Shown piece by piece: positions 1,195-36,214 of a DNA stretch of 37,353 nucleotides; position 1 is the first letter of the stretch; each line of letters opens with the position of its first letter. The translations under genes and the position numbers were made by a program. This DNA is from Saccoglossus kowalevskii (Eukaryota; Hemichordata; Enteropneusta; Harrimaniidae), in the NCBI RefSeq assembly GCF_000003605.2, contig NW_003120425.1, positions 201,405 to 238,757 of the forward strand, given 5' to 3'. The notes beneath the pieces are model-generated. The model saw only the letters and a program-made list of their open reading frames with translations. It was not told the DNA's origin and did not search any database.

Positions 1195-1470
1195 ATCTAT
1201 TCAGAATAAGAGACAGCAGGGGTGCATGACTAATATCCCATTCTTCATAATACATGATGTATGATTTAGTTTGATCATATCCTCTATGGAATACACTCAC
1301 ACTATTAGATGTTACTTCTCCTTGAATTTTCATACTTAACGTTTTTGGGGCTACTGCTGGAGCTTCCAGAATTTCATAAACGAATATGACAGTTGTGCGT
1401 AAGTTCATTAATTTCACTTCTATAGATCCACTATCACATGTTTCCCAGTCTGCAGTCATTTTAAAGGCAC
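1195..1470 (-). CDS. Gene B exon 2: N-terminal domain of a secreted vWD-family protein
   Basis: This is an internal exon of 276 bases on the minus strand, phase 1 at both ends. It is preceded by the acceptor TACTTGCAG and followed by the donor AGAT|GTAAGT. It encodes 92 residues beginning, after the split codon, with AFKMTADWETC. The pattern DW-x-TC-x-x-G-x-IEV-x-L followed by TVI is shared with exon 2 of gene C at 27127-26707, as are the position after the signal-peptide exon and the phase. Beyond that the two exons diverge strongly, and this one is about 48 codons shorter. The last complete codons are followed by a T that would make Cys with a phase-1 GT start, as in gene C. The next exon lies left of the window. 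The function of this domain is not recognised; secretion is inferred from the upstream signal peptide. Confidence 0.72.
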
Positions 1471-5609: not shown

Positions 5610-6960
5610 TAGTGAGTCATATCCGGAAATACTGTCTTTCATCATTCGTGAGACAGATATGTCAAATTTGAAAATTAAATGCTTGTATCTTCAAAAAACC
5701 TTTTAATAGTTCTAACAAGCACTGATTGTGAGCTTTGAAGCCAGTGAGCTGTGTCTTACCCGGAAATCGTTGTACAAAACACACGCTCTAGAATATATAA
5801 GACGCTGTGATATATAGATACCATGAGCTGGAGTTGATGGAATATTGCTAGACAAATAAGGATAATTTCAAAATCAAAATTATCCCTTGTGTCATACAGC
5901 TTAGTATATAGACAATTCGGTCAAATCAAGGTAGGAAGCAGAATCCATGTTCTGAGTGGTCTTTTTAATTTTTAAAGGATAAATCAGGTCTAGATATTTC
6001 GAAATACCCTGATTATTGTAGCTCAACAGATCATCAATGTATCTGTATGTGTTGTTAAAGCGCTTTGCAAGTTGTTTCTTCCCTGACTGATGCAGAGGCT
6101 GCATAAAATCTGCCTCATATGAATATAAAAATAGTTCAGCAAGAAGTGATGCACAGTTTATACCCATAGGAATACCAACAGTTTGTCTAAAAGTCAAGCC
6201 ACCAAATTTGACAAAGATATTATCAATGCCAAAAGTGATCATAGATGTAATAGCATCTTCTGTATATTTATTTCTAGCATCTTCATTGTTACTAAAAACA
6301 GTTTTGTGTAATAACAATAAACTTATACCTACGACTGTCATTCTTGTTAAAGAAGACTTGTTGCACAAGAGATGTTAATCTAGTTTTAAGTTTATCATTA
6401 GGAATTTTAGTGTACAATGTATAAAAATCAAATGTATGAATAGAACTGTACCCAATGTTGTACTGACCTTGCAAGATATCTAACAGTTCTATTCAATTCT
6501 TAAGTATCCACTTTTGGTTGAGGCCAGTAGTTTCATAAACTTTGCCACAATAGCAAAAAATACAATTTTTAATGGTAGACAGAATGATGGTTAACAATTG
6601 TGACAAGCGTTTAGTGGTACATTTGCAAGAACCTGCTATATAAAGTTGTTTGTATGGATTCTTGTGCAGTTTTGGGATCCAATACAAACAAGGCAGCACT
6701 CTGTCCTCCTGTCGTACCAATACCAAACTGATGCAAAACATATATGTTATATATATATCTTCATCTGGTAAGCGGGAGAGACTATAGATTGTGTTGTTCG
6801 CATCTGTATGTGGTAGCAATTTATTAATTAAGCATTTGATGTAATAATGCTTGCAGATAAAAATAATGTTGTTAGATGCTTTATCTGCTGGAAAAATCAC
6901 ATACTTATCTTGTATAGCTTTCAGACAATCACTAACAGCTGAATCTAACAGCTCGAATAC
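5610..6960 (-). mobile_element. Decayed Penelope-like reverse transcriptase
   Basis: Read on the minus strand, three overlapping frame fragments follow the order of a metazoan reverse transcriptase of the Penelope-like type. They are FPADKASNN near 6895-6865, YWIPKLHKNPYKQLYIAG near 6690-6635, TFDFYTLYTKIPNDKLK near 6435-6385, GIPMGINCASLLAELFLYSYE near 6180-6115, and the catalytic YIDD at 6030-6041. Similarity continues through YDTRDNFDFEI at about 5912-5880 and, in a shifted frame, to about 5610. The element is broken by a stop after WILKN near 6493, a frameshift near 6300-6370, loss of sequence before the IFVKFGG stretch, and further shifts and stops below 5900. No GIY-YIG endonuclease is visible. 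The right edge meets a repeat that recurs at 36215-36330, so insertion was into existing family DNA. Confidence 0.8.
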
Positions 6961-6961
6961 T

Positions 6962-7080
6962 ATTTCGATTGAAATATCTTTTTTTCGACTTTAAAATAAA
7001 TAAATAAATTTAACTTAGAATTAACCTCTATAATTATAATTAGTTACTTTATTTTCTATTGTCCGGAATATAAATCTTGT
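6962..7080. repeat. Copy of 0.12-kb block shared with 12345-12420 and 36215-36330
   Basis: Phrases such as AAATATCTTTTTTTC, ACTTAGAATTAACCTC, TAATTAGTTAC and TTTTCTATTGTCCGGAATAT recur in order at 36225-36330. A shorter match lies at 12395-12420. The block abuts the decayed signal-peptide exon at 7088-7147 on one side and the Penelope relic on the other. It marks a boundary between tandem units of the gene family. Confidence 0.7.
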
Positions 7081-7087
7081 ACTCTCA

Positions 7088-7147
7088 TGCTCCAATTCTG
7101 TTATAAATCACCAGCCCTAGAACAATTATATAAAAAAAATACTTCAT
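7088..7147 (-). pseudogene. Gene A relic: decayed signal-peptide exon
   Basis: On the minus strand, ATG at 7147 opens a 20-codon hydrophobic sequence, MKYFFYIIVLGLVIYNRIGA. It is a clear homologue of exon 1 of gene C (MDKIYIIVLGLVLYNSNGA), with the shared core IIVLGLV-YN. In gene C the exon ends GCAA|GTAAGT; here the same place reads GCATGAGAGT, so the GT donor is lost and an in-frame TGA follows. The TATA box and the leader conserved between genes B and C are also missing, because sequence right of 7150 jumps to a region matching about 34910 onwards. The exon is therefore a dead paralogue stranded in gene B's first intron. Confidence 0.75.
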
Positions 7148-7705: not shown

Positions 7706-8106
7706 TCTTCTCAGGATGGCAACATATTATCTGGGGAATGACTGGTTATATAATTGCTGTCCTCTATGTTTATTTTTCGGAGCGGCGCACACTTAGGTAT
7801 GTCAAAACCGGAGAACTCACTGTGTAATCTAAAATTTGTCTTGTATGTGTTTTGATTATGATTTAGAAGGTGGTTGTGGTGGTGGTCGGGGTGTGAGTGC
7901 TCATAAATGTATAAAACATTCCAAAAATACAAAACAATAATGTAATGTTACTCTAGCTCTGCTTTTGTTAGTATATAAGAATATTGTACTTGTATGTTAA
8001 TCCTGCATTAAAGACTAGTTAAAATAAATACCTATTAAAATATAAATGATATATTCGTATGCTGCTTAAAGTAGCTGCCGGTAGCATGAAATAAACCTCG
8101 TAATAT

Positions 8107-8925
8107 GCTTACTAATAATACACACTGTATTATTGCATATCGTTGTCTACCTGAATGTCACACAATGTTATCTACATAAGTCAAAGCATTACCAAGTTTC
8201 AATGATTTTCATGTGTGTTTGTTTTTGTTTTGTCGGAATTACATGTGGGAAAAAAAAACAGGAAGATAGCTTTAGGACAGCGGTCGTGCCTAACAATGGT
8301 GCACAGGTCAATTTACACCGCCATTTTGAATCTATTTTATTATTATTTTTATAATACCTACCCTATGTTAGCTTTATTGTAAACCTATATAACGCCAATT
8401 TCGTATTATTACCAAATTAATTGTTATAATTGTTTGTAATCCATATTTCGTCTGAGAGATTTGTTAGTTCTCGTTGGTTCATGATTCATAAATAACTCTT
8501 ACCCGATTTGCATCTGCGATGTGAATGCTTTGTTGCGATGACATGAGAGATTATGAAACCGGGTGGTACACACCCTGTTCTAATACTGCCAGCTCTACCA
8601 TTATATAATTTTCCATTACGCATCATCGCTAATATATTCACTATTTTCCTAAAATTAAACTTAATTTCAAGAACCGACCTCAGTTCAATATTCTAGTTTA
8701 ATATTAATATCAGTATTTTTAATTAAATTGTAATTAAGATTCATATAAAATAACTAGAGAATATATGACGCACATTAGAAAAACCAACAAACGAGAACAG
8801 AATATGCATATCATATATGTCATTTGAATAAAACATGAATACACAACCATATATTCATCGATAAAACAATTGAGTATTGTAATATTATACTATGTTAGTG
8901 CTGTTGGCATTAGTAGAGAAAAGGT
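8107..8925. repeat. 0.8-kb dispersed repeat, copy A
   Basis: This copy starts TACTAATAATACACACTGT and ends near TTAGTAGAGAAAAGG. Landmarks shared with copies B (10975-11790) and C (35340-36065) include GGTCGTG, GTTTATTGTAAACCTAT or its variants, ACCCGATTTGCAT, CCAGCTCTACCATTATATAATTTT, GACGCACATTAGAA and CAATTGAGTATTGTAATATTATAC. It has no intact coding frame. A poly-A run at 8249-8258 interrupts one frame. The repeat sits upstream of the signal-peptide exon relic in the same relative position as copy C. Confidence 0.85.
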
Positions 8926-10962
8926 GCAATATCTTTATTTTCTACTCTGGCCATTGGCCTTATGTACAGATACAAATAAATACATAATAAATTAGATTGA
9001 AATGGTTGCATAAATAAGTGAAGAAAAACAAATATAAAATCATAATACACAGAATTTGAATAACTAAGTGTTCTCTCCAAGCATAAGTTGTCGTACTCGA
9101 AAGCTATAAATATAAATTTACCCAGGTGTAATTGTACAAATGTGGTTTGATTCTGAAATAATGAAATAAACTGGATCTCTGTAGGTGGGGAGTAATAATA
9201 CTGTGCAATAAACTTCAACCTTAGGAGGTTATATTTGGAACATACTAATGTGAAGTGGTATTCATCCGATCAATTACATTACAGCCAAAAAGGCACAACC
9301 TTTGAGTACGTGGAGTACCACGGCCCTATCCTTTTCAATTTGTGCACGGGACGAGATCCTTAATTTCTGAATATTGCAGAAGACTGTCCAATATTTGTTA
9401 GATATTTCTTACATGATAATTCATGTTTCACCTTACAATAAGTTACAAGTTTGGGACTTCTATTAATTTCAGAGGTCCAATCTTGTCTGGAAATATCAAA
9501 GCACCTCTGTTTAAACAGTTCCTGTAATACACCAGAATTACCTACATATTGGTCAATCCAAATATGTCCAAAACCATATTTATAGAGAAGATTTTTAACT
9601 GTAAATGCCCAGCAGATAGTATCCGCTCCTGTCATATTAATTTGAAATTTATACGATTCTTTTTTAGATATGTGGAGAAACATCACTTATAATTTTTAAC
9701 CAAAAACGAATAATTTCAACATTTACATGCAATATGCATGGATAACATGGATAACGCCGTCCCAATTCCCCCCTAACAGCGGAATTAGTGGCAACAAAAC
9801 TAACACTTCAATAATAACATCATTAATATCAGAATAACATTTAATATCAGATTGTTTGCCCCCAAATAGCACTACCGTAGAGGAGAATTGGATAGAAATT
9901 TACAATCAAATATACGAAAAGCAACATCAGGTGGCACACCACCCAGATTCCGTAACTTTTTTTCCAAACAAAAAAGTGCTTTACCAGCCTGTTGAGAAAC
10001 ATATTTTTGTGCCTGATGCAATTTCGTAGAACTGGAAAGTATACCCCCCCCCAATAATTATATTTTGAAACAATTTGAATGTTTTTACCCTTCCAAAACC
10101 ATTTTCCCTGTTCTGTTAAGCGACCTCCTTTCCGAAGAAACAATAATTTTAGTTTTCTTAAGGTTCACTGTAAGTCTCCACTTTGAACAATAGTCTGCCA
10201 AATTATTCAAAAATCGTTGTAAACGAACAGGTGTACTACTAAACAGAGCCAGGTCATCTGAATACAACAAGTAACACAATTTTAAAGCACACAGGTAAAC
10301 TACAGTTGTATAACCTTGTCCAAAAGTTATATGAAGGTCATTAATGTAGAAGCAAAATAAAAGAGGTGAAATCACAGAGCCCTGTTGCAAACCCATACTA
10401 ATATTAAAGTAGTTAGTTTTCCCCCAGGGAGTTTGCACTGCCGCCTTTACATGCTGGTACATTGAATATAAGGAAGACCGGTCTTCGATAACTTGTAAAA
10501 CAATGAGAAATGATGTACCCTACCGAAGGCCTTCTCATTGTCTACAAATGCACAATAGAAACGACCTTTTAACTGAGAGACATATTTTTTCCACAAGAGT
10601 AGGTAATGTGGTTCTATGTTTCTGGAAATCACTTTGTTCTTCCAGAATTTCATTATAATGTTTTAACCAGGTATTTAACCTATTACGTAATATACTTATG
10701 ACGTTGATTAACATAATACTACTGTAATTACCGGGGTCATCCTTTTCCCTTCTTGTATACAGACGATATTAATCCCCTACCCTATTCATCAGAAAAGATT
10801 CCCTGGTCAAATACATTGTTGTATGAAACAAATAACATTTCATTAATCTCTATGGGAGCATTTTTCAAAAATTCTGTGGGTATGCCATCTGGCCCTGGAG
10901 CTTTAGTTTTCTTTAATTTATTTTAATTTTCCCTAATTTCATCCAGAGAAATAGACCTCAAA
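8925..10962 (-). mobile_element. 5'-truncated, decayed LINE (non-LTR) retrotransposon
   Basis: The minus-strand fragments follow a LINE reverse transcriptase. They are KTKAPGPDGIPTEFLK near 10910-10860, YKKGK and DPGNYSSI near 10765-10720, FCAFVD-like YCAFVDNEKAFGRVHH near 10560-10510, GLQQGSVISPLLF near 10390-10350, catalytic YSDD at 10253-10264, and NLKKTKIIV near 10165-10140. C-terminal sequence follows (GFGHIWIDQYVG near 9580-9545, LFKQRCFDISRQDW near 9520-9475), then a CNVI-DEYHF-type stretch near 9285-9245 and a last conserved piece, KFIAQYYYSPPTEI, near 9215-9170. The 3' end near 8928 has an AATAAA signal. Stops and frameshifts occur throughout, and the endonuclease region is absent. 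Direct copies of an 0.8-kb repeat flank it. Confidence 0.82.
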
Positions 10963-10974
10963 ATCTAATATGGA

Positions 10975-11790
10975 TACTAATAATACACACTCTCATATTG
11001 AATATCTTTGTCTACTGGCATGTTATACAATATTATCTATATAGGTCTAAGCACCACCAAGTCACTGATTTTTGTGTGTGTTGTTTCTGCTTTGTCAGAA
11101 TGAAGACAGCTTCGGGACACCGGTCGTGTCGAGCAATGGTGCGCAGTTCAATTTACACCGCCATTTTAAAACTATTTTATTATGTTTTGATAAATAATAT
11201 ATCAATTACAAATGACGTCCCTATGGTATGTTTATTGTAAACCTATCTGTCACCAATTTCCTATTATTATCCAATAAATTACTATTACAATTTGTAATCC
11301 ATACTTCGTCTGGATAATTTGTTTGTTCGTGTTTCGTTGGTTGATGATTCATCTAACCCGATTTGCATGTGCAATAATAATGCTTTGTTGGGATGGGATT
11401 ATTGCACATGGTAGTACACATCCTGTTCTAATACTGCCAGCTCTACTATTCTATAATTTTGCATTATGCGTCATCGCTAATATATTCACTATTATCCTAA
11501 AATAAAACCTATTTACTAGAACCGACCCTCAATTTAATATTCTAGTTTAATATAAATATAAGCATCCTTAAATAAATTGTAATTAAAATCAACATAAAAC
11601 AACTAGAAAATATATAAGTGACGATGCACATTATACAACAACAATTGAAGACAGGATACACATAGATTCTTCTTATGTCATTTAAACAATACATGACTAC
11701 ACAGCCAAGATATTCATCAATGAAACAATTGAGTATTGTAATATTATACAATGTTGGTGCTGGTAGCATTGGTGGAGAATACTCCTGTTT
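10975..11790. repeat. 0.8-kb dispersed repeat, copy B
   Basis: This copy starts ATACTAATAATACACACTCT, in the same orientation as copy A, and ends near GCATTGGTGGAGAATA. It is closer to copy C at several places, for example AATGACGTCCCTATGGT (11210-11226), which also occurs at 35521-35537. Open frames in it (10998-11240, 11323-11505, 11675-11977) are not conserved as protein across the copies and are not called as genes. Confidence 0.85.
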
Positions 11791-14496: not shown

Positions 14497-14548
14497 TTGC
14501 AACTTGACACAGCACCAGGATTATAATGATCGGGAAAGTCTTCATCAT
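14497..14548 (-). CDS. Gene B exon 1: signal peptide
   Basis: This first coding exon on the minus strand encodes MMKTFPIIIILVLCQVA plus one base, and ends GCAA|GTGAGT (phase 1). The residues have the charged start, hydrophobic core and small-residue end of a secretory signal peptide. A second ATG follows immediately, so the true start could be either Met. The exon is the counterpart of gene C exon 1 at 34704-34761: same phase, similar length, and 22 bases of identical leader just upstream. It joins in frame to exon 2 at 1470 across a 13-kb intron loaded with transposon relics, giving a Ser at the split codon. Confidence 0.72.
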
Positions 14549-20942: not shown

Positions 20943-21241
20943 CTTCCGGGAACCATCCAGCTATCTCCAAATTCGTATATATCATCTTTAGTCACAATAA
21001 CTCCATCAGATTTCATGAAGTCATCCTCAGGATCACCATTAGCGTTTCCTAGTAGACCACAGACATTGCCTCGCATATTAGGACCATTCAAAGCTATATT
21101 GATACCATGGGTTGGTTTAGTCCAAACCAGAGATAGAGCAGGGTTATTTAATTGTACGTACACGTGCTCATCTTCTACTTTCACAGTTCCCAATCCATTA
21201 CCAATTACAGCAGTTGAATTGGTGAAGAGTTGACCTTTTAT
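20943..21241 (-). CDS. Gene C exon 7: second half of the vWD domain
   Basis: This exon of 299 bases starts in phase 0 after CATACTGTAG and ends in phase 2 at GGAAG|GTGAGG. It encodes about 99 residues. They include VEDEHVYVQLNNPALSLVW, GINIALNGPNMRGNVCGLLG and NANGDPEDDF, and end FGDSWMVPG. CGL-GN-NGD--DDF is the hallmark end of von Willebrand type D domains, followed by the DSW seen in many of them. The usual CGLC is CGLL here, so one cysteine of the CxxC motif linked to multimer assembly in vWF is missing. The exon completes the vWD fold begun in 21675-21919, for a domain of usual length (about 160 residues). The protein is presumably extracellular. Confidence 0.88.
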
Positions 21242-21674: not shown

Positions 21675-21919
21675 AAGAAAATTGTCATTCTTGAGTATAC
21701 GTAGTAACTGCATTCCGTCAACATTAACATCAACAGCATTAATACGAGTTAGTGGTTTTGAACGTAATTCAGAATATTTCCCACGGAATTCAGCAGTCAC
21801 TTGAAATGATGGTTTGTTGATGTTACTACAGTCCTGAGTGAGAACATATGTACACAGACCTTGGAAGTTGTATCTTACGCCGTCGAACGTTGTCATGTGA
21901 GGATCCTGTTCGGTAATTC
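21675..21919 (-). CDS. Gene C exon 6: first half of the vWD domain
   Basis: This exon of 245 bases starts in phase 1 after TTTTTACAG and ends in phase 0 at TTTCTT|GTAAGT. It encodes [18 protein letters not shown], then [25 protein letters not shown] and [12 protein letters not shown]-x-TTFDG-x-RY-x-F-x-G-x-CTYVL is the canonical opening of a vWD domain, including the aspartate and histidine region and the first two cysteines. It joins in frame to 21241-20943. The upstream hinge exon at 22229-22215 supplies the split Gly codon. Confidence 0.9.
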
Positions 21920-22214: not shown

Positions 22215-22229
22215 CTGTTGGCTTTGGAG
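22215..22229 (-). CDS. Gene C exon 5: 15-base hinge micro-exon
   Basis: Between TTCTTACAATAG and GTAAGATATA on the minus strand lie 15 bases that start and end in phase 1. They add five residues with the pattern T-PKPT and a split Gly into the vWD exon. Length and phase make it optional: skipping keeps the frame. It is too short to be seen as an open frame; the support is the pair of splice sites, matching phase, and Pro/Thr content like the two neighbouring micro-exons. Confidence 0.62.
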
Positions 22230-23331
22230 CTATTGTAAGAAAAGAAAGTGTAAAGTTTATTATTATGCAAAATATACATATATGCGTCTAATTCTTTTAG
22301 AAACATAATTTAAAAGTATATGAAACTAACGTTTTTCAACTGGAAACAAAATACTTTAGTACTGATACATTCACTACCCTTCACGCATTTGTTTAATATC
22401 TACGCTATATACAAATCGTACAAGAGTTATAAAACAAGTAAAACTGCAGATCTATATTTATGATGACAATAACAACATTAGTTTCTTCACCTCAATTTCT
22501 TGGAAGTAAAAGTACTTTAATCACATGACAAAATTCTCACGATAGTGTCACCGTTCTTGCTGCATATGAAGAGCATTCATTGCCACATACGTTTTTCTAA
22601 ATGATACATTTTGTGGTTGGACGCGGGGAGTTATAGTCATATTTCAACAGTTGATATTGAGTTCACATGCGATTCACAAATTTGGCGAATCGTGAACTCT
22701 TTATACTGGAACAATGTTACATGCAGGTTTTCCCACTATTTATGGTTTAATTAATTGCAATAAGATACAAATTGTGGTTTCCTTTGTAACCAAATGCAGA
22801 TCTTTCTCAAAATCAAAATATTTGTACCTGTCGAAAGGATAACCTCTACTGCCATTTTTGTATGGACATTCGTCCCTAGCTTGGATGAGAGTTCAAGCTT
22901 CGCATCCCATCACTTCAACATCCGAAATCAATATGGTGCAATATATTCATTTCTTTACTTAACATTTTTTTCACATAACAAAATAAATTCATATTTTGAC
23001 TCGCACTGAAGGATTTTCATGTTGTTGAAAAATGTATGTTTCAATATAAATTAACCATACTTTTATTATCTTAGAAAGGTGTCATATTGTCGAAGGTGGT
23101 ATGACAGTTATTGTTTATGTTCTTTAAAACTAGTTACACTAATTCAATAATCAAACCAATACAGTGGTGTACATTTAGAATGTTCAACGGATAATGAAAG
23201 GATTTACACTTGTAAATGCTGCTTAGTCGCCCCCTGTAAATCGATTGGGGCTGAACATCAAAGATGCAAAAACATATCATAAAAAGATACAATTCTGGTT
23301 TTGAAACCCGAATAGAAAATGTGTTACTTAC

Positions 23332-23352
23332 TGGGAGGAGGAATGGTGGTAC
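23332..23352 (-). CDS. Gene C exon 4: 21-base hinge micro-exon (unit 1)
   Basis: Flanked by TTTTAAAACAG and GTAAGTAAC on the minus strand, 21 bases in phase 1 at both ends encode TTIPPP plus split codons. It lies in unit 1 of the 1.47-kb tandem duplication and is paralogous to the micro-exon at 24795-24812, with one extra Pro codon. It would lengthen the threonine- and proline-rich hinge between the N-terminal domain and the vWD domain. Such segments are usually extended and O-glycosylated; that is inference here. Confidence 0.65.
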
Positions 23353-24794
23353 CTGTTTTAAAATAAAAAAATACAAATATCAAATCTGTGTGTCAAACTT
23401 AATGCCTCTGACAATGGTGCAAGTACACATAGATATGTTCCGTGCAGGTTAATCAATTACTGTTTTATATGTCATTTGTGATTGAAATCTAGTAATATTA
23501 GGAGGATCATATGAACAAAATATTACAGGTTGTGTATGATGTTTACATATACTCGAAACACTATAACATATGCCGCATAGAGTCAGTAACATCCACTGGT
23601 GGCGCTGTATAATTTCAAAATGTTTAGTGGCTCGCAAAGGTAGGCATGTCTAGGATATAGGTCTCGACGCACGCACGGACGCACACACACGGTCGCATTC
23701 GCAGAGGTAATCCTCAAGTCGCCGTTTTTGAACTGTGTCCGAACGGAGACTAATAATGTAGTGGAGAAGACGAACATGCACATTAGAGCCGGTCGGATTC
23801 ACCTTTCAAAGGTACCATCAATGTCGAAGCCGAATGATTGTATATGTATATGTATTTGATATTTTTTCTTCTATGATCTCAATTTTATGGTCATTGATCT
23901 TAACTTTTTGGTAGTTTCAAAGTTTCAACCAGTGCAGGTATTAGATTGTTCGAGGAAATTTTGGCTAAAAACGTGACCGAATGTTTCGTGATCGAAAAGA
24001 ATGCGATTGCAAATGATGGACGGAACCTCGTCTACCAGAAAATGGATAGATGGCGTGGACTTCGTGTAATTTAGTCTACTTTTTTCTAAATGATACATTT
24101 TGAGGTTGTATGCGGGGAATTGTAGTTATTTGTTAACATTTGACATTGAGTTCACATTCGATTCACAAATATGGTGAATCGTGAACTCTTCATACTTGAC
24201 CATGTTACATGCATGTTTTTCCACTATTTATGGTTTAATTAATTGCAATAAGATACAAATTGTGGTTTCCTTTGTAACCAAAATGCAGATCTTTCTCAAA
24301 ATCAAAATATTTGTACCTGTCGAAGGATAACCTTTACTGCCATTTTTTTGGACATTCGTCCCTAGCTTGGATGAGAGTTCAAGCTTCGCATCCCATCACT
24401 TCAACATCCGAAATCAATATGGTGCAATATATTCATTTCTTTACTTAATATTTTTTTTACTAATTGTCACATAACAAAATAAATTTATATTTTTGACTCG
24501 CACTGAAGGATTTTCATATTGTTGAAAAATGTATGTTTCAAAATAAATTAACAATACTCTTGTTATCTTAGCAAGGTGTCATATTGTCGAAGGTGGTATG
24601 ACATTTATTGTTTATGTTCTTTAAAATTAGTTACACTAATTCAATAATCAAACCAATACAATGGTGTACATTTAGAATGTTGAACAAGTAATGAAGGAAT
24701 TTACACTTGTAAATGCTGCTTCAGTCACCCCTTGTAAATCATTGGGGCTGAACATCAAAGATGCAAAAAGTATCATACAAATTGTGTTACTTAC

Positions 24795-24812
24795 TGGGAG
24801 GAGTGGTGGTAC
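24795..24812 (-). CDS. Gene C exon 3: 18-base hinge micro-exon (unit 2)
   Basis: This has the same acceptor (TTTTAAAACAG) and donor (GTAAGTAAC) as the copy at 23332-23352, here enclosing 18 bases that encode TTTPP plus split codons, phase 1 to phase 1. The split codon with exon 2 gives Cys, and that with exon 4 gives Ser. Both copies kept splice signals and frame after duplication, while nearby intron sequence picked up indels. This suggests that both exons are used, but selection has not been tested. Confidence 0.65.
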
Positions 24813-25392
24813 CTGTTTTAAAATAAAAAAATAAAAATATCAAATCTGTGTGTTAAACTTAATGCCTCTGACAATGGTGCAAGTACACATAGATAAGTTC
24901 CGTGCAGGTTAATCAATTACTGTTGTATATGTCATTTGTGATTGAAATCTAGTAATATTAGAAGATCATATGAACAAAATATTACAGGTTGTGTATGATG
25001 TTTACATATAGTCTCGAAAAACTGTAACATATGCCGCATAGAGTCAGTAAAAGCCACTGGTGGCGCTGCATAATTTCAAAATGTATAGTGGTTCGCAAAG
25101 GCAGGCATGTCTAGGATATAGGTCTCGACGCACGCACGGACGCACACACACGGTCTCACTCGCAGCGGTAATCCACAAGTCCCCGTTTTTAAACTGCGTC
25201 CGAGCGGACACTATTAATGTACTGGAGAAGACGAACATGTACATTAGAGCCGGTCGGGTTCACCTTTCAAAGATACCATCAATGTCGAAGCCGAATGATT
25301 GTGTATTGTATATGTATATGTATTTGATATTTTTTCTTTCGTGATCTCAATTTTATGGTAATTGATCTTAACTTTTTGGTAGTTTCAATGTT

Positions 25393-25911
25393 TCAACTAG
25401 CGCAGGTTTTAGAATGTTCGGGGAAATTTTTGCTAGAAACGTGACCGAAAGTTTCGTGATCGAAAAGAACGGATTGCAAATGATGGACGGAACTTCGTCC
25501 ACCAGAGAATGGATGGATGGCATGGACTTCGTGCAATTGAGTACGCCCTCCTACTATAGCCTGAAACTTAGCCTTGATGGGTAATTTGTTCAAAATAAAA
25601 TAAAATATTTCTCTTCGTAACTGCTTGTTTTCATTGTCAATGTGTGATCGAGTGTACATGGCCATGACATATAATAATTGCTTATCACTCGGGCTATTCA
25701 TACTGGGGATCAGATTCTGTCGTAAATACCAGAGACATCCATAGTTACGCCAGTCTGCAAACGACAAATGTGTTCCTACACTTGTCACACAGGTACGGAC
25801 AGCACTGTAATTATCAGTTAGCACAGCTCCTCTTGAATAATTTTCACATCGGGGGAAAACAATTAATATATTATAGTTATCCTGAGTGTTTTTGTTGTTG
25901 CTATAGGACAT
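25393..25911 (-). other. Unassigned 172-codon open frame
   Basis: This minus-strand frame is long for this AT-rich DNA, but no family is recognised. Its last 50 or so codons lie in unit 2 of the tandem duplication (HEVHAIHPFSGGRSSVHHLQ near 25530-25470), and the same stretch in unit 1 near 24040 is frameshifted. An overlapping plus-strand frame at 25372-25584 (including MMDGTSSTREWMDGMDF) is also open. The unique half (25543-25911) contains DWRNYGCLWYLRQNLIPS. It sits in gene C intron 2 in a position that does not fit the gene. Probably a relic of another element or a chance frame. Confidence 0.25.
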
Positions 25912-26706: not shown

Positions 26707-27127
26707 ATTCTGGTGGACTCACATCTTGCTGATCTGTTTGTATGTATTGGACTTCACGTTTCTTAGAACCATCCTTTACAAGGCCATACCATACAGTATA
26801 TATCTTATCTGCAGGTGCCGTGAATGTAATTTGTTTTGAAGTTTGACCAGCTGGAATAGTAATTACCAACGGGCCAATAACAACTGTGTTTCCGTCTTTC
26901 AGCGAAACATGAATTTTTGTATCTGTGTCATACGCCTTTTCAAGTACAAAATTTACATATATGGTCTTTCGATTGTCACCGCACGGCCACGTTGCTGTAA
27001 AAACTTGGACCCACTTCGTGCCTAGGAAAACAATTTACTATGACTGTTTGGCCAAGGTTCTTTATTAACACCACTTCTATGGTGCCATTTTCACACGTGT
27101 TCCAGTCTGCATCAAATGTAAAGCCAC
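26707..27127 (-). CDS. Gene C exon 2: N-terminal beta-rich domain, one base out of frame
   Basis: This internal exon on the minus strand is preceded by TATCTTGCAG and ends CCAGAAT|GTAAGT, phase 1 to phase 1. It begins GFTFDADWNTCENGTIEVVL, close to gene B exon 2, and ends VQYIQTDQQDVSPPE with a split Cys. The middle includes TWPCGDNRKTIYVNF and PAGQTSKQITFTAPADKIY, alternating hydrophobic strands like a beta sandwich. The length is 421 bases, one more than a multiple of three. The first frame is open to a TGA at 26976-26978, and the second is open from 27040 down, so a single extra base lies between about 26979 and 27040. Both halves are well conserved in style, so a sequencing or assembly error (A run at 27027-27030) is as likely as a real break. 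No domain family is recognised. Confidence 0.7.
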
Positions 27128-29451
27128 CTGCAAGATATAATGTATATGCATATTATTAAATATTATATTATAGCATTGTCAATACCAGCGAATTTTATAA
27201 CGTCATTTTCATTATTCGCGATAATGTATTGCATTATGTATTTCCGAGTTAAACCTGTGGTTAATTCTTGTTGCAGGGCCACTTTTTTAGCCGTGCATTA
27301 TCAGCCAATATAACATTAATTGCATATGCAAATATTATGTTTGGACCAATCAAATCTATGGATTAACACCATCAATATACTGGTATAATATAATATTTAT
27401 TTACTTATACGTCGGGCTTTAGTTTGATTTCGCCTTCATGACAATGCCCTGACAGATTGCAGCTTCACTTATTTGACATTAAATCATGTAACCTGTCTGG
27501 TTGGTCTTTATTTTGTTACTAGAAATGTTGAGTGTTGCCCTGACACCTACGTTAGGATGTCGTTTCACATTTAGTGGTGATATTTAAAGTCTAGTGTTTA
27601 ACATAAGAGAGGTTCTGGCTTACTATTTTTAACAGCTTTTATTTCAGTAGCCTTTACTTTGTTAAACCACTTATTCAATGCGTTGAAAGAGCAGTTGTGG
27701 AGAAACACGTCGAAAGACTACACTAACATGAAGATCTGTGTCACAGCGTTGACATTTTCAGAAATACCCATCAAGACAAATATAATGAATGCTTTCTAGT
27801 GGCTGTATTTACTGTATATTTCGGGTGGATACATGTCTGCAAGGGCATCAAATCAGACACTTTTAAAGACTGTTGTTGAGGTGCGCATACTGCACAAATT
27901 GTTTTTTGAATAATTCCGAGCTACCAGATTGAGTTAACACCAAAGGTAATAAGATGATATTCTAGTTGGGTGGGTGGTAAAAAAATGGAACTCTAGTTAG
28001 CCATTGCCCAGTATCATCCACTATATCAGACATATATTTCTCGCTGCCAGTGGTTGTTCAAAACAAGAAATCAGTCACCAATATGAAAAAAAACAATATG
28101 TCTTTTTAAAGAATGTATGTTGTACTTCATTGTGGACAAAACTGGAATGTGCATCTCTTCTTTTGGAAAGCAGATGTTGTTCATCGACAGCACCTAGACA
28201 CTCATTTCTGTGTTGTACACTGGGAGATGGCTACTCAATTCTAGAATAAAGTAGTGTGATACGGTTGTAGCCATATACATATTTAAGAAGTTTAATATTT
28301 ATGCTTATACATAAGCAGACTCCTTCAACACCACCATCCTATTCATACGTTGCCCACCTAGATTGTATTACAAAAGGCATTTACTTCAAGCCGTAATTGT
28401 CAAATTAGAAGTAAAATATGAATACCCCGTTTTTATATTAAAAAAAACTAAAAAAAAAAATATAAAATATTAGGAGATCAGTTACTGAACACTGGGCCTA
28501 AACTTCCTGTTACCACTAATGGCGCACTTCCGGCAGCCTCCTTCTGACAGATTTACTCGTGATTTAGTGAAGGTCGCTTATTGTTTGTAACATGCATAGG
28601 GAGTCTGGACCATGCTGTCATAATAACTTTGCAATATGGAGAAACATGTGTCTTTTTACCTAATTGTTTTGACCAAGTAGACAATAAACATGTACAGAAC
28701 ATGGTATATCTTGGTGATTTAACTGCAGAAAAAATAACACAAAGATACAACACAGTATAATAAAGGATCAGTAAGAAGCTGACTCAAATGTATGTCATTT
28801 CTTGTTTAGGTTTGAATGAAATTATGATATTGTAAGTGTTATACAGTTATTATTTACAATAGTAAATATATTGTGTATTTCATTATTTAACTTTTCAGAT
28901 TTTAAAATATTGTGGCATCTTATGTGTGTGTGGGGTGGGGGTCGCTTTGCATATATAATTATGCATAATGGTCAACCAGTGCGAGCCCCCTTCAAATAGT
29001 TACTATAACGACCGTACATTTAAATACCGCAATATTTACCCTGATTGCAATTTCAAATGACAACAATTTGGATTTTTAGGGAATTATATAATGTTTACCA
29101 TTTGAAAATGATATTCTCATAAAATAACAAAATTGCTATTAAATATAATTTAACTTTTTAACCAGATTTTCCAAAAATGCAATTATAGAATTATAAATTA
29201 TTTGCTTAATTAGTATCGCATGTGTACATTTTTTATAGTTATAGAAATTTTATTCCGCGTGAAAACGAAACAAATCCACAGTGAATAGAGCAGCGTAAAC
29301 ACACAAATTAGCATGACAAAAGATGACCTCTCTGACCTTTTACTGACTGCGTCAACGCCATTTGAAATACAGGGTTGTGTACAGTTTGGATCATTAAAGC
29401 AACGGATTTTCCACGTTTTCATTCCGGCTTTTGAACAATTTGGACTGTAAT
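27128..29451. other. Gene C intron 1, left part
   Basis: No exon that fits the phase-1 junctions is seen. Two frames, 28004-28249 plus and 28553-28753 minus, lack motifs. An A-rich tract lies at 28440-28470 and a GT/GGGT-rich stretch at 28922-28944. Nothing else is recognised. Confidence 0.45.
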
Positions 29452-32290: not shown

Positions 32291-33290
32291 ATTCGGTCTC
32301 CGTGCGTCGGTGCGTTTGTGCGTCCGTCCGGAGTCATATCCCAGAATCTCTTGGACCGATTCCGTTCATTCTTTGCATGTGCCTAGTACTTTATGTGGGA
32401 CATATGCACATCCAGTGGTTTAGCGAGTCGATTCAAAATGGCCGACTGGCAGCCATCTTGTTTTTTGAAAATGTTGTATTTTAGACATGCTTTGTTAGTT
32501 TTCATTCAAACTTGGTACATATATTATACATATTAGGATACATGTCCATGATGAATTATTTTCACAATTGGATCAAAGATGGCCGACTGGCAGTCATCTC
32601 GTTTTTTGAAAATGTCGTATTTTTGACATGCTTTGTCAGTTTTCATTCAAATTTAATACATAGATCATACATGTTAGGATACATGTCTCCGACCGTCCGT
32701 GAGTTCCTTAGTTTGTCCGTCCGTGTGTCCGCCCGTCCGTGCGTCAGTCTGTCCAAAGTCATATTTCAGAATCCTGACATATGCACATGCAGTGGTCTAG
32801 TGATTCGATTCAAAATGGCCAACTTGTAGCCATCTTGATTTTTGAAAATGTTGTATTTTGGACATGCTTTGTCAGTTCAAACTTGGTACATAGATTATAC
32901 ATGTTAGGATACATGCCCATGACGATTTATTTCGCAATTGGATCAAAGATGGTCGACTGGCAGGCATCTTGTTTTTTTATGTGGTATCTTGGACGTGCTC
33001 TGTCAGTTCTCATTCAAATTTGACACATAGATGTACTTTAAACATGTTAGGATGCATGTCCATGACAATTTGTTTCAAAATCTGGTCAAGGATGGCCGAT
33101 TGACAGCCATTTGACTTTTTGGCCTTACTACTATATTTCCATAATTTATGTATCATTTTCATTCGTATTTGGCACATACATCATACATATCAGTGTGTTT
33201 CATAATCACATCAAAGATGTCCGAATAACGGCTGTTTTTATTTTTCGCCATATTACTACTACACGGAACACGTGTTTTGATGTAAATAAA
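32290..33290. repeat. Satellite-like array, about 125-145-bp units
   Basis: Units start with GATTCAAAATGGCC or GATCAAAGATGGCCGACTGG at about 32430, 32572, 32809, 32942, 33086 and 33210. Each continues CAGCCATCTTGTTTTTTGAA, ACATGCTTTGT and TTAGGATACATGTCC or variants. A GTCCGTCCG-rich segment precedes the units at about 32300-32330 and again at 32690-32750, giving a higher-order repeat of roughly 0.4 kb. Copies degrade to the right. Long frames across it (32200-32484, 32512-32829, 32781-33023) arise from the repeat phrase and are not genes. A related single piece lies at about 26230-26345 (AACTTGGTACATACAT). Confidence 0.88.
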
Positions 33291-34703: not shown

Positions 34704-34761
34704 TTGCTCCATTACTGTTATACAGCACCAGCCCTAGAACAATTATGTAAATCTTGTCCAT
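34704..34761 (-). CDS. Gene C exon 1: signal peptide
   Basis: On the minus strand, ATG at 34761 opens MDKIYIIVLGLVLYNSNGA, with one further base before the donor GCAA|GTAAGT. A short charged start, an uninterrupted hydrophobic core and small residues at the end mark a secretory signal peptide. The phase-1 end joins exon 2 at 27127 to make Ser-Gly-Phe. The TATA box lies 54 bases upstream, so the leader is short. Homologous exons are found at 14497-14548 (gene B) and, decayed, at 7088-7147. The product is inferred to be a secreted protein: signal peptide, beta-rich domain, Pro/Thr hinge, single vWD domain, about 361 residues. Confidence 0.8.
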
Positions 34762-35339: not shown

Positions 35340-36065
35340 TCACTGACTTTCATGTGTGTTATTTCATGTGTGTTATTTCTTTGTCGGTATGACATGTGAG
35401 AAAAGAAGACATGAAGACAGCTTTAGACAGCGGTCGTACCGTACAAGGGTGTGTAGTTCAAATAACATCGTTATTTTAAAACTATTTTGTTATCATTTTA
35501 ACAATTAATATATTACTTAAAAATGACGTCCCTATGGTCGGTTTATTGTAAACCTATCTGACGGCAATTCCTTATTATTACCAAATTCATTATTTATATT
35601 TTTTAACTATATCTGTCTGGGAAATCTTGATTCATGTGTCGTTGGTATGCAATTCATTAATTAGGCTAACCCGATTTGCATGTGTGCTGTGCCTGCTTTG
35701 TTGGAATGACATGAGGGAGCAGACGACAAGGTGGTACACATTTTGTTGTCAGCTCTATCATTATATGATTTTCCATCATGCGTCATCATATATTCACTAT
35801 TTATCTAAAATTATTCACAAGATCCGGCCCTTCCTTTAATTGTTAGTGTAATATTAATATCAGTATCTTTAAAAAATGCAATTAAGCCTAATATAAAACA
35901 ACTAGAAAATAGATCAGTGATGACGCACATTAGAAGCAACTAATGAAGACAGGATATGCATAGCCTTTTTTGAACAATATATGAATACACAGTCGACATA
36001 TTCAGCGATGAATCAATTGAATATTGTAATATCATATCATGTTAGGGCTGGTAGCATTAGTAGAG
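35340..36065. repeat. 0.8-kb dispersed repeat, copy C
   Basis: Third copy of the repeat at 8107-8925 and 10975-11790, in the same orientation. It keeps AATGACGTCCCTATGGT, GTTTATTGTAAACCTATCTG, ACCCGATTTGCATGTG and the end phrase GCTGGTAGCATTAGTAGAG. The left end lacks the TACTAATAATACACAC start seen in A and B and carries a small internal duplication (TTTCATGTGTGTTAT) near 35349-35379. Confidence 0.85.
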
Positions 36066-36214
36066 AAAGAGTATCATCCTTTTTTTCCCCAACAAAACAT
36101 GAACAGCACACAAGCAAACCAAAACCCACGAAACACGAATTAAGAGGTCCCCGATGAAACATATATTACAACTGGCTAGGTGAATGAACGCAATGATTAT
36201 TTTGTTTCAAGTAT

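Follow-up and report, generated by a model that had tools for sequence, protein, structure and literature searches.

Tandem duplication of a candidate hinge microexon in a predicted VWD-domain gene of Saccoglossus kowalevskii

The question raised by this locus of the enteropneust Saccoglossus kowalevskii is whether a protein linker has been lengthened by copying one very small exon together with its flanking introns, and how many of the resulting exons a transcript could leave out. The window, by which we mean the whole stretch of 37,353 bases that was analyzed (contig NW_003120425.1 of assembly GCF_000003605.2, positions 201,405 to 238,757), contains no N. An initial annotation had described two head-to-tail units of 1.47 kb here, with a microexon in each. 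We consider it likely that the locus is a secreted-type VWD gene in which a hinge microexon was duplicated in tandem, with one to three hinge microexons included in the mRNA and at least one of them obligatory.

The tandem units and their uneven divergence

The two head-to-tail units hold up in a self-comparison, where they are the top self-match of the window with a bit score of 2003.

22592 to 24075, no strand assigned: tandem unit 1, the downstream copy in transcript order, 93.9% identical to unit 2 without gaps
24081 to 25542, no strand assigned: tandem unit 2, the upstream copy in transcript order, aligned to unit 1

The 93.9% identity is taken over 1440 aligned bases, of which 1352 match and 88 differ (by 52 transitions and 36 transversions), with 66 gap columns besides, and the Jukes-Cantor distance is 0.064, or 6.4% corrected divergence. 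There are 18 indel events, of which 2 have a length that is a multiple of three (3 and 6 nt) and 16 do not. The aligned ends of the units are separated by 5 bases, and the self-comparison finds no third copy in the 37,353-base window. The duplication of an intron-exon-intron block is real.

Divergence is patchy along the units, the observed chi-square being reached in 6 of 2000 permutations, and the highest-divergence bins go up to 15%. Around the microexon, in a stretch that reaches 200 nt upstream and 100 nt downstream of it, there are 7 mismatches in 282 bases versus 81 in 1158 elsewhere (p = 0.0007, with the 282-base window chosen post hoc). This is no more than suggestive of constraint around the microexon. 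It does not amount to proof, because an exonless patch at 22733-22955, compared with the matching bases of unit 2, is lower still, with 1 substitution in 220. The unevenness in general could come from gene conversion or from constraint; for the patch, the cause may be gene conversion or some element. Despite its near-identity, the patch carries four 1-base indels relative to unit 2.

The host gene and its candidate microexons

The exons of the gene are all on the minus strand and are given here in transcript order.

34704 to 34761, minus strand: probable first coding exon, signal-peptide-like, the best of 3 scan rows; donor score 8.9
26707 to 27021, minus strand: upstream exon (exon 2), encoding an unnamed domain and ending in phase 1 with T; its 5' end is uncertain (27127, 27021 or 26994)
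24795 to 24812, minus strand: candidate hinge microexon m18, 18 nt, phase 1/1, TTTPP; acceptor 8.0 and donor 7.7 bits; rank 5 of 675
23332 to 23352, minus strand: candidate hinge microexon m21, 21 nt, phase 1/1, TTIPPP; acceptor 8.0 and donor 7.7 bits; rank 6 of 675
22215 to 22229, minus strand: candidate hinge microexon m15, 15 nt, phase 1/1, PKPT; acceptor 8.6 and donor 11.6 bits; rank 1 of 675
21675 to 21919, minus strand: VWD exon, N-terminal half, starting with GA in phase 1 and ending in phase 0; Pfam VWD 4.2e-13 (ORF); splice scores 6.7 and 6.7
20943 to 21241, minus strand: VWD exon, C-terminal half, phase 0 to 2; Pfam VWD 2e-08 (ORF); splice scores 9.2 and 11.8

The product is probably a secreted protein with a signal peptide, a small unnamed domain, a Thr/Pro-rich hinge and a VWD domain, as read from the sequence. 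The spliced protein has Pfam VWD (PF00094) as its sole match above cutoff, at 2.3e-25, and its VWD part has 33 distinct PDB sequences as relatives at E ≤ 0.01, including FCGBP (Fc-fragment-of-IgG-binding protein), mucins and von Willebrand factor. The upstream domain has no PDB relatives at E up to 1, and we leave it unnamed because its best Pfam match, LapA at 7.1e-4, is below the family cutoff. The first exon (34761-34704) reads MDKIYIIVLGLVLYNSNGA; its signal-peptide-like start rests on a hydropathy scan and on a paralogous first exon, and as the scan was limited to hydrophobic starts followed by a phase-1 donor, the phase is a condition and not a finding. Beyond 20943, no convincing exon emerged from the list of candidate acceptors. 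A search for VWD relatives in viral contigs had 3 stretches fitting the pattern and 0 confirmed, and no RNA families are found in the sequence at gathering scores.

The paralog lies in tandem with the studied gene and in the same orientation.

near 14497 to 14548, minus strand: paralog first exon, signal-peptide-like, resembling the first exon of the studied gene
1195 to 1470, minus strand: paralog second exon, phase 1/1, ending in T before gtaagt like the exon that ends at 26707

Over 30 residues, the start of the paralog second exon shares 57% identity with the segment 27128-27000 (E 4e-7 in the comparison within the window), and no paralog hinge or VWD was found in the window. Of the three acceptors considered for exon 2, the one at 27127, homologous to that of the paralog, scores best (6.8, versus 4.2 at 27021 and 5.0 at 26994), and it produces a frame break; 27021 or 26994 give open frames. 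The break may come from an error in the sequence, from a genuine switch of acceptor or from decay, and given this break the gene could be damaged or a pseudogene. On the minus strand at 26990-27130, two segments that both look like domain starts adjoin in different frames within exon 2. A third first-exon-like piece is found near 7068-7134, without the splice donor.

All three candidate microexons lie in one 4.8-kb intron, between 26706 and 21920. Each unit has one candidate on the minus strand, m18 in unit 2 (24812-24795, GTACCACCACTCCTCCCA) and m21 in unit 1 (23352-23332, GTACCACCATTCCTCCTCCCA). In the unit alignment they differ by a single 3-nt indel with zero substitutions, and they have an identical 20 nt upstream and an identical gtaagtaa downstream, so the description of one phase-1/phase-1 microexon of 18 or 21 bases per unit, with a common acceptor and donor, agrees with both flanks and scores. 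The 3-nt indel is in frame, versus 16 of the 18 unit indels that are not multiples of three, a weak contrast that concerns one event. The 20-nt tract preceding m18 and m21 is rich in A besides T, which counts against them. Because both start with GT, recursive splicing was considered; such splicing would recreate a donor behind the upstream exon that scores 0.0, versus 5.2 in the intron, making it unlikely.

The splice scores come from approximate matrices for animals, not trained on this species. With them, no other candidate of 9-30 nt reaches 8.0 at the acceptor and 7.7 at the donor together on either strand of the 37 kb, and 200 Markov-simulated intron blocks of the same length have a mean of 0.025 candidates at that level, or 0.005 with length divisible by three, a comparison that is partly circular as the thresholds were taken from the microexon sites themselves. 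A less circular ranking orders by joint score every minus-strand candidate of 9-51 nt whose acceptor and donor both score 0 or more, 675 in all, giving the ranks listed above; 707 plus-strand candidates satisfy the same conditions. The composition of the encoded peptides is a test independent of splice scores. Among the other candidates on both strands with lengths divisible by three, 190 of 249 are open in phase 1, and 0 of the open controls with at least 3 residues combine a T/P/S share of 75% or more with a P share of 40% or more, limits that all three microexons pass; one two-residue control (TP) is within both. Since m18 and m21 are copies, the three sites count as two independent ones. 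From their splice scores and their in-phase Thr/Pro-rich peptides, the microexons look real.

The third hinge exon that the initial annotation placed at 22215-22229 stands as a site, with the first rank of 675 by joint score, and is not supported as a product of the same multiplication. With 150 nt on either side, m15 scores 22 against the unit, a value matched by 35 of 200 shuffles, so that homology to the units is not detected in this comparison. The duplication thus made two exons from one, and not three, as m15 and its flanks do not resemble the unit.

Splice combinations and the all-skip stop

Under predicted splicing, 7 of the 8 inclusion patterns of the three microexons translate as open frames, and in these the hinge that separates PPE from ITEQ is 6 to 19 residues long; the full three-microexon hinge would be CTTTPPSTTIPPPTPKPTG. 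Because the duplicated exons are phase-symmetric (18 and 21 nt, both phase 1/1), a copy adds six or seven residues with the frame unmoved, and the earlier reading of an intron-exon-intron duplication that lengthens a Thr/Pro linker in frame is upheld by alignment, phase and translation. The reading frame imposes no mutual exclusivity on the duplicated microexons.

The eighth pattern is different. With all three microexons skipped, the T that ends the upstream exon meets the GA that starts the VWD exon, and the junction reads TGA, so this mRNA cannot encode the VWD part. As predicted from the sequence, each microexon is skippable singly but not all three, and at least one is needed for an open frame. 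The sequence does offer the scope for several hinge lengths that was anticipated, in its seven open combinations; the idea that each exon could be skipped freely does not survive the TGA, and neither does an isoform with 0 hinge exons as an mRNA encoding VWD. The next exon junction lies 245 nt beyond the stop, and by the usual rule a stop that far ahead of a junction leads to nonsense-mediated decay, for which the all-skip mRNA is a predicted target. The stop alone does not imply selection, because 3 of 64 random codons are stops.

The junctions also have consequences for the residues of the hinge. The codon at the end of the upstream exon is TGT (Cys) when joined to m18 or m21 and TCT (Ser) when joined to m15, junctions between microexons in transcript order are Ser or Thr, and the last junction is Arg or Gly. 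Hence the hinge has one Cys or none, and translation of the predicted forms shows that the choice of microexon would decide which.

The new point of this locus is the all-skip stop, and the rest is an instance of known tandem exon duplication. The stop predicts that mRNAs encoding VWD have one, two or three hinge exons and never none, which separates free cassette splicing from obligatory inclusion. A more speculative idea, which we hold to be rather improbable, is that the three microexons act as an OR gate, in which inclusion of any one switches the VWD part on and also sets hinge length and the one Cys. If true, the T-GA stop would be read upon skipping all three, leaving the N-terminal domain only or sending the mRNA to decay, and the duplication would have made the gate more robust and the hinge longer.

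Origin of the units and comparison with known systems

Local tandem duplication is the simplest account of the units. In the mechanism we propose, the hinge would be written by phase-1-bordered microexons in a minus-strand gene, and one of these, together with about 1.4 kb of flanking intron, was duplicated in tandem. Splicing would then include one to three microexons, so that the hinge would measure 6 to 19 residues and perhaps carry O-glycans, and an mRNA that skips all of them would go to nonsense-mediated decay. The outer flanks of the duplicated pair have 3 bases, ACG, in common, a trace that short microhomology could leave.

The same ACG is also compatible with the unit being a mobile element that arrived as a dimer and carried the microexon along, and the best end-to-end inverted match in unit 1, at 12, is reached by 25 of 1000 random placements. 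That match is set in by 12 bases at one end of the unit and by 28 at the other, though, and in unit 2 the value is 6, under the control mean of 7.6. No third copy is present in a window that has several multi-copy repeats, and for three ORFs in and beside unit 2 Pfam gives nothing like a transposase, the sole match being CheF-arch at 0.035, below cutoff. A mobile-element origin therefore appears unlikely as judged within the window, and the dimer insertion is to us the least credible of the alternatives. Somewhat less implausible, and still unlikely, is that the assembler set two alleles of one locus in tandem, in which case the 18-nt and 21-nt exons would be allelic variants. The patchy divergence (6 of 2000 permutations) also fits alleles of mixed ancestry. 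Against it, 6.1% substitutions and 18 indels in 1.44 kb are high by the yardstick of alleles in most animals, and the copies abut, with their aligned ends 5 bases apart in a window without N.

A different doubt concerns the exons and not the units, namely that the microexon sites are intronic decoys, the gene being dead or spliced in another way. The break in frame that the homologous acceptor at 27127 causes in exon 2 would fit this. Yet joining the upstream exon directly to VWD gives TGA, and the sites are phase-matched, encode Thr/Pro, rank high by score and share one 4.8-kb intron, so that decoys seem to us quite unlikely. These explanations are partly compatible with one another, and the confidences we attach to them do not sum to one.

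Under the duplication reading, the locus provides a clear case of linker growth by copying an exon of 6-7 codons with flanks that are still alignable. By sequence criteria it belongs with the tandemly duplicated exons: one gene carries two homologous exons in head-to-tail order, and the introns around them are homologous as well. Such head-to-tail copies within a single gene are described in PMC9741552, with mutually exclusive substitution; in our case the frame forces no such exclusivity. A related system is the human IgG3 hinge, where, according to PMC4202688, the hinge exon is duplicated to give up to four hinge exons, and the IgG1 hinge exon has 15 residues. As there, a hinge between two extracellular parts appears to be lengthened by copying a hinge exon, with m18 and m21 as the copies and m15 not detectably related. 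Unlike that system, the exons here have 5-7 codons, versus the 15 residues of IgG1, skipping every hinge exon makes a stop, and the gene is not an immunoglobulin heavy-chain constant gene, VWD being its sole Pfam match above cutoff and unrelated to that family.

The schistosome micro-exon genes (MEGs) encode secreted proteins and contain symmetrical exons of very small size, which allow variants that differ by a few residues; according to PMC4350168 such exons make up most of the coding region, and MEGs appear restricted to platyhelminths. The tiny symmetrical exons in a probably secreted protein are similar here, whereas only the hinge is made of microexons, totaling 54 nt beside ordinary domain exons of 245, 299 and about 315 nt. 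By analogy, the predicted gene works like IgG3 hinge growth and like MEGs and is a member of neither. Among the matches listed for literature on microexon-built or duplicated hinges, no such case appears in the titles and abstract starts.

Elsewhere in the window, the minus strand has reverse-transcriptase-like fragments at 5901-6374 (Pfam RVT_1 1.9e-3, below cutoff) and 10085-10519 (3.2e-16). A dispersed repeat of about 0.7-0.8 kb is found in three copies that are 73-76% alike, at 8088-8920, 10948-11779 and 35340-36068. Direct repeats that overlap one another, 73-90% alike, are clustered at 32399-33121, and within the cluster is a tandem run of GTCCGTCCGTGCGTCA at 32715-32754.
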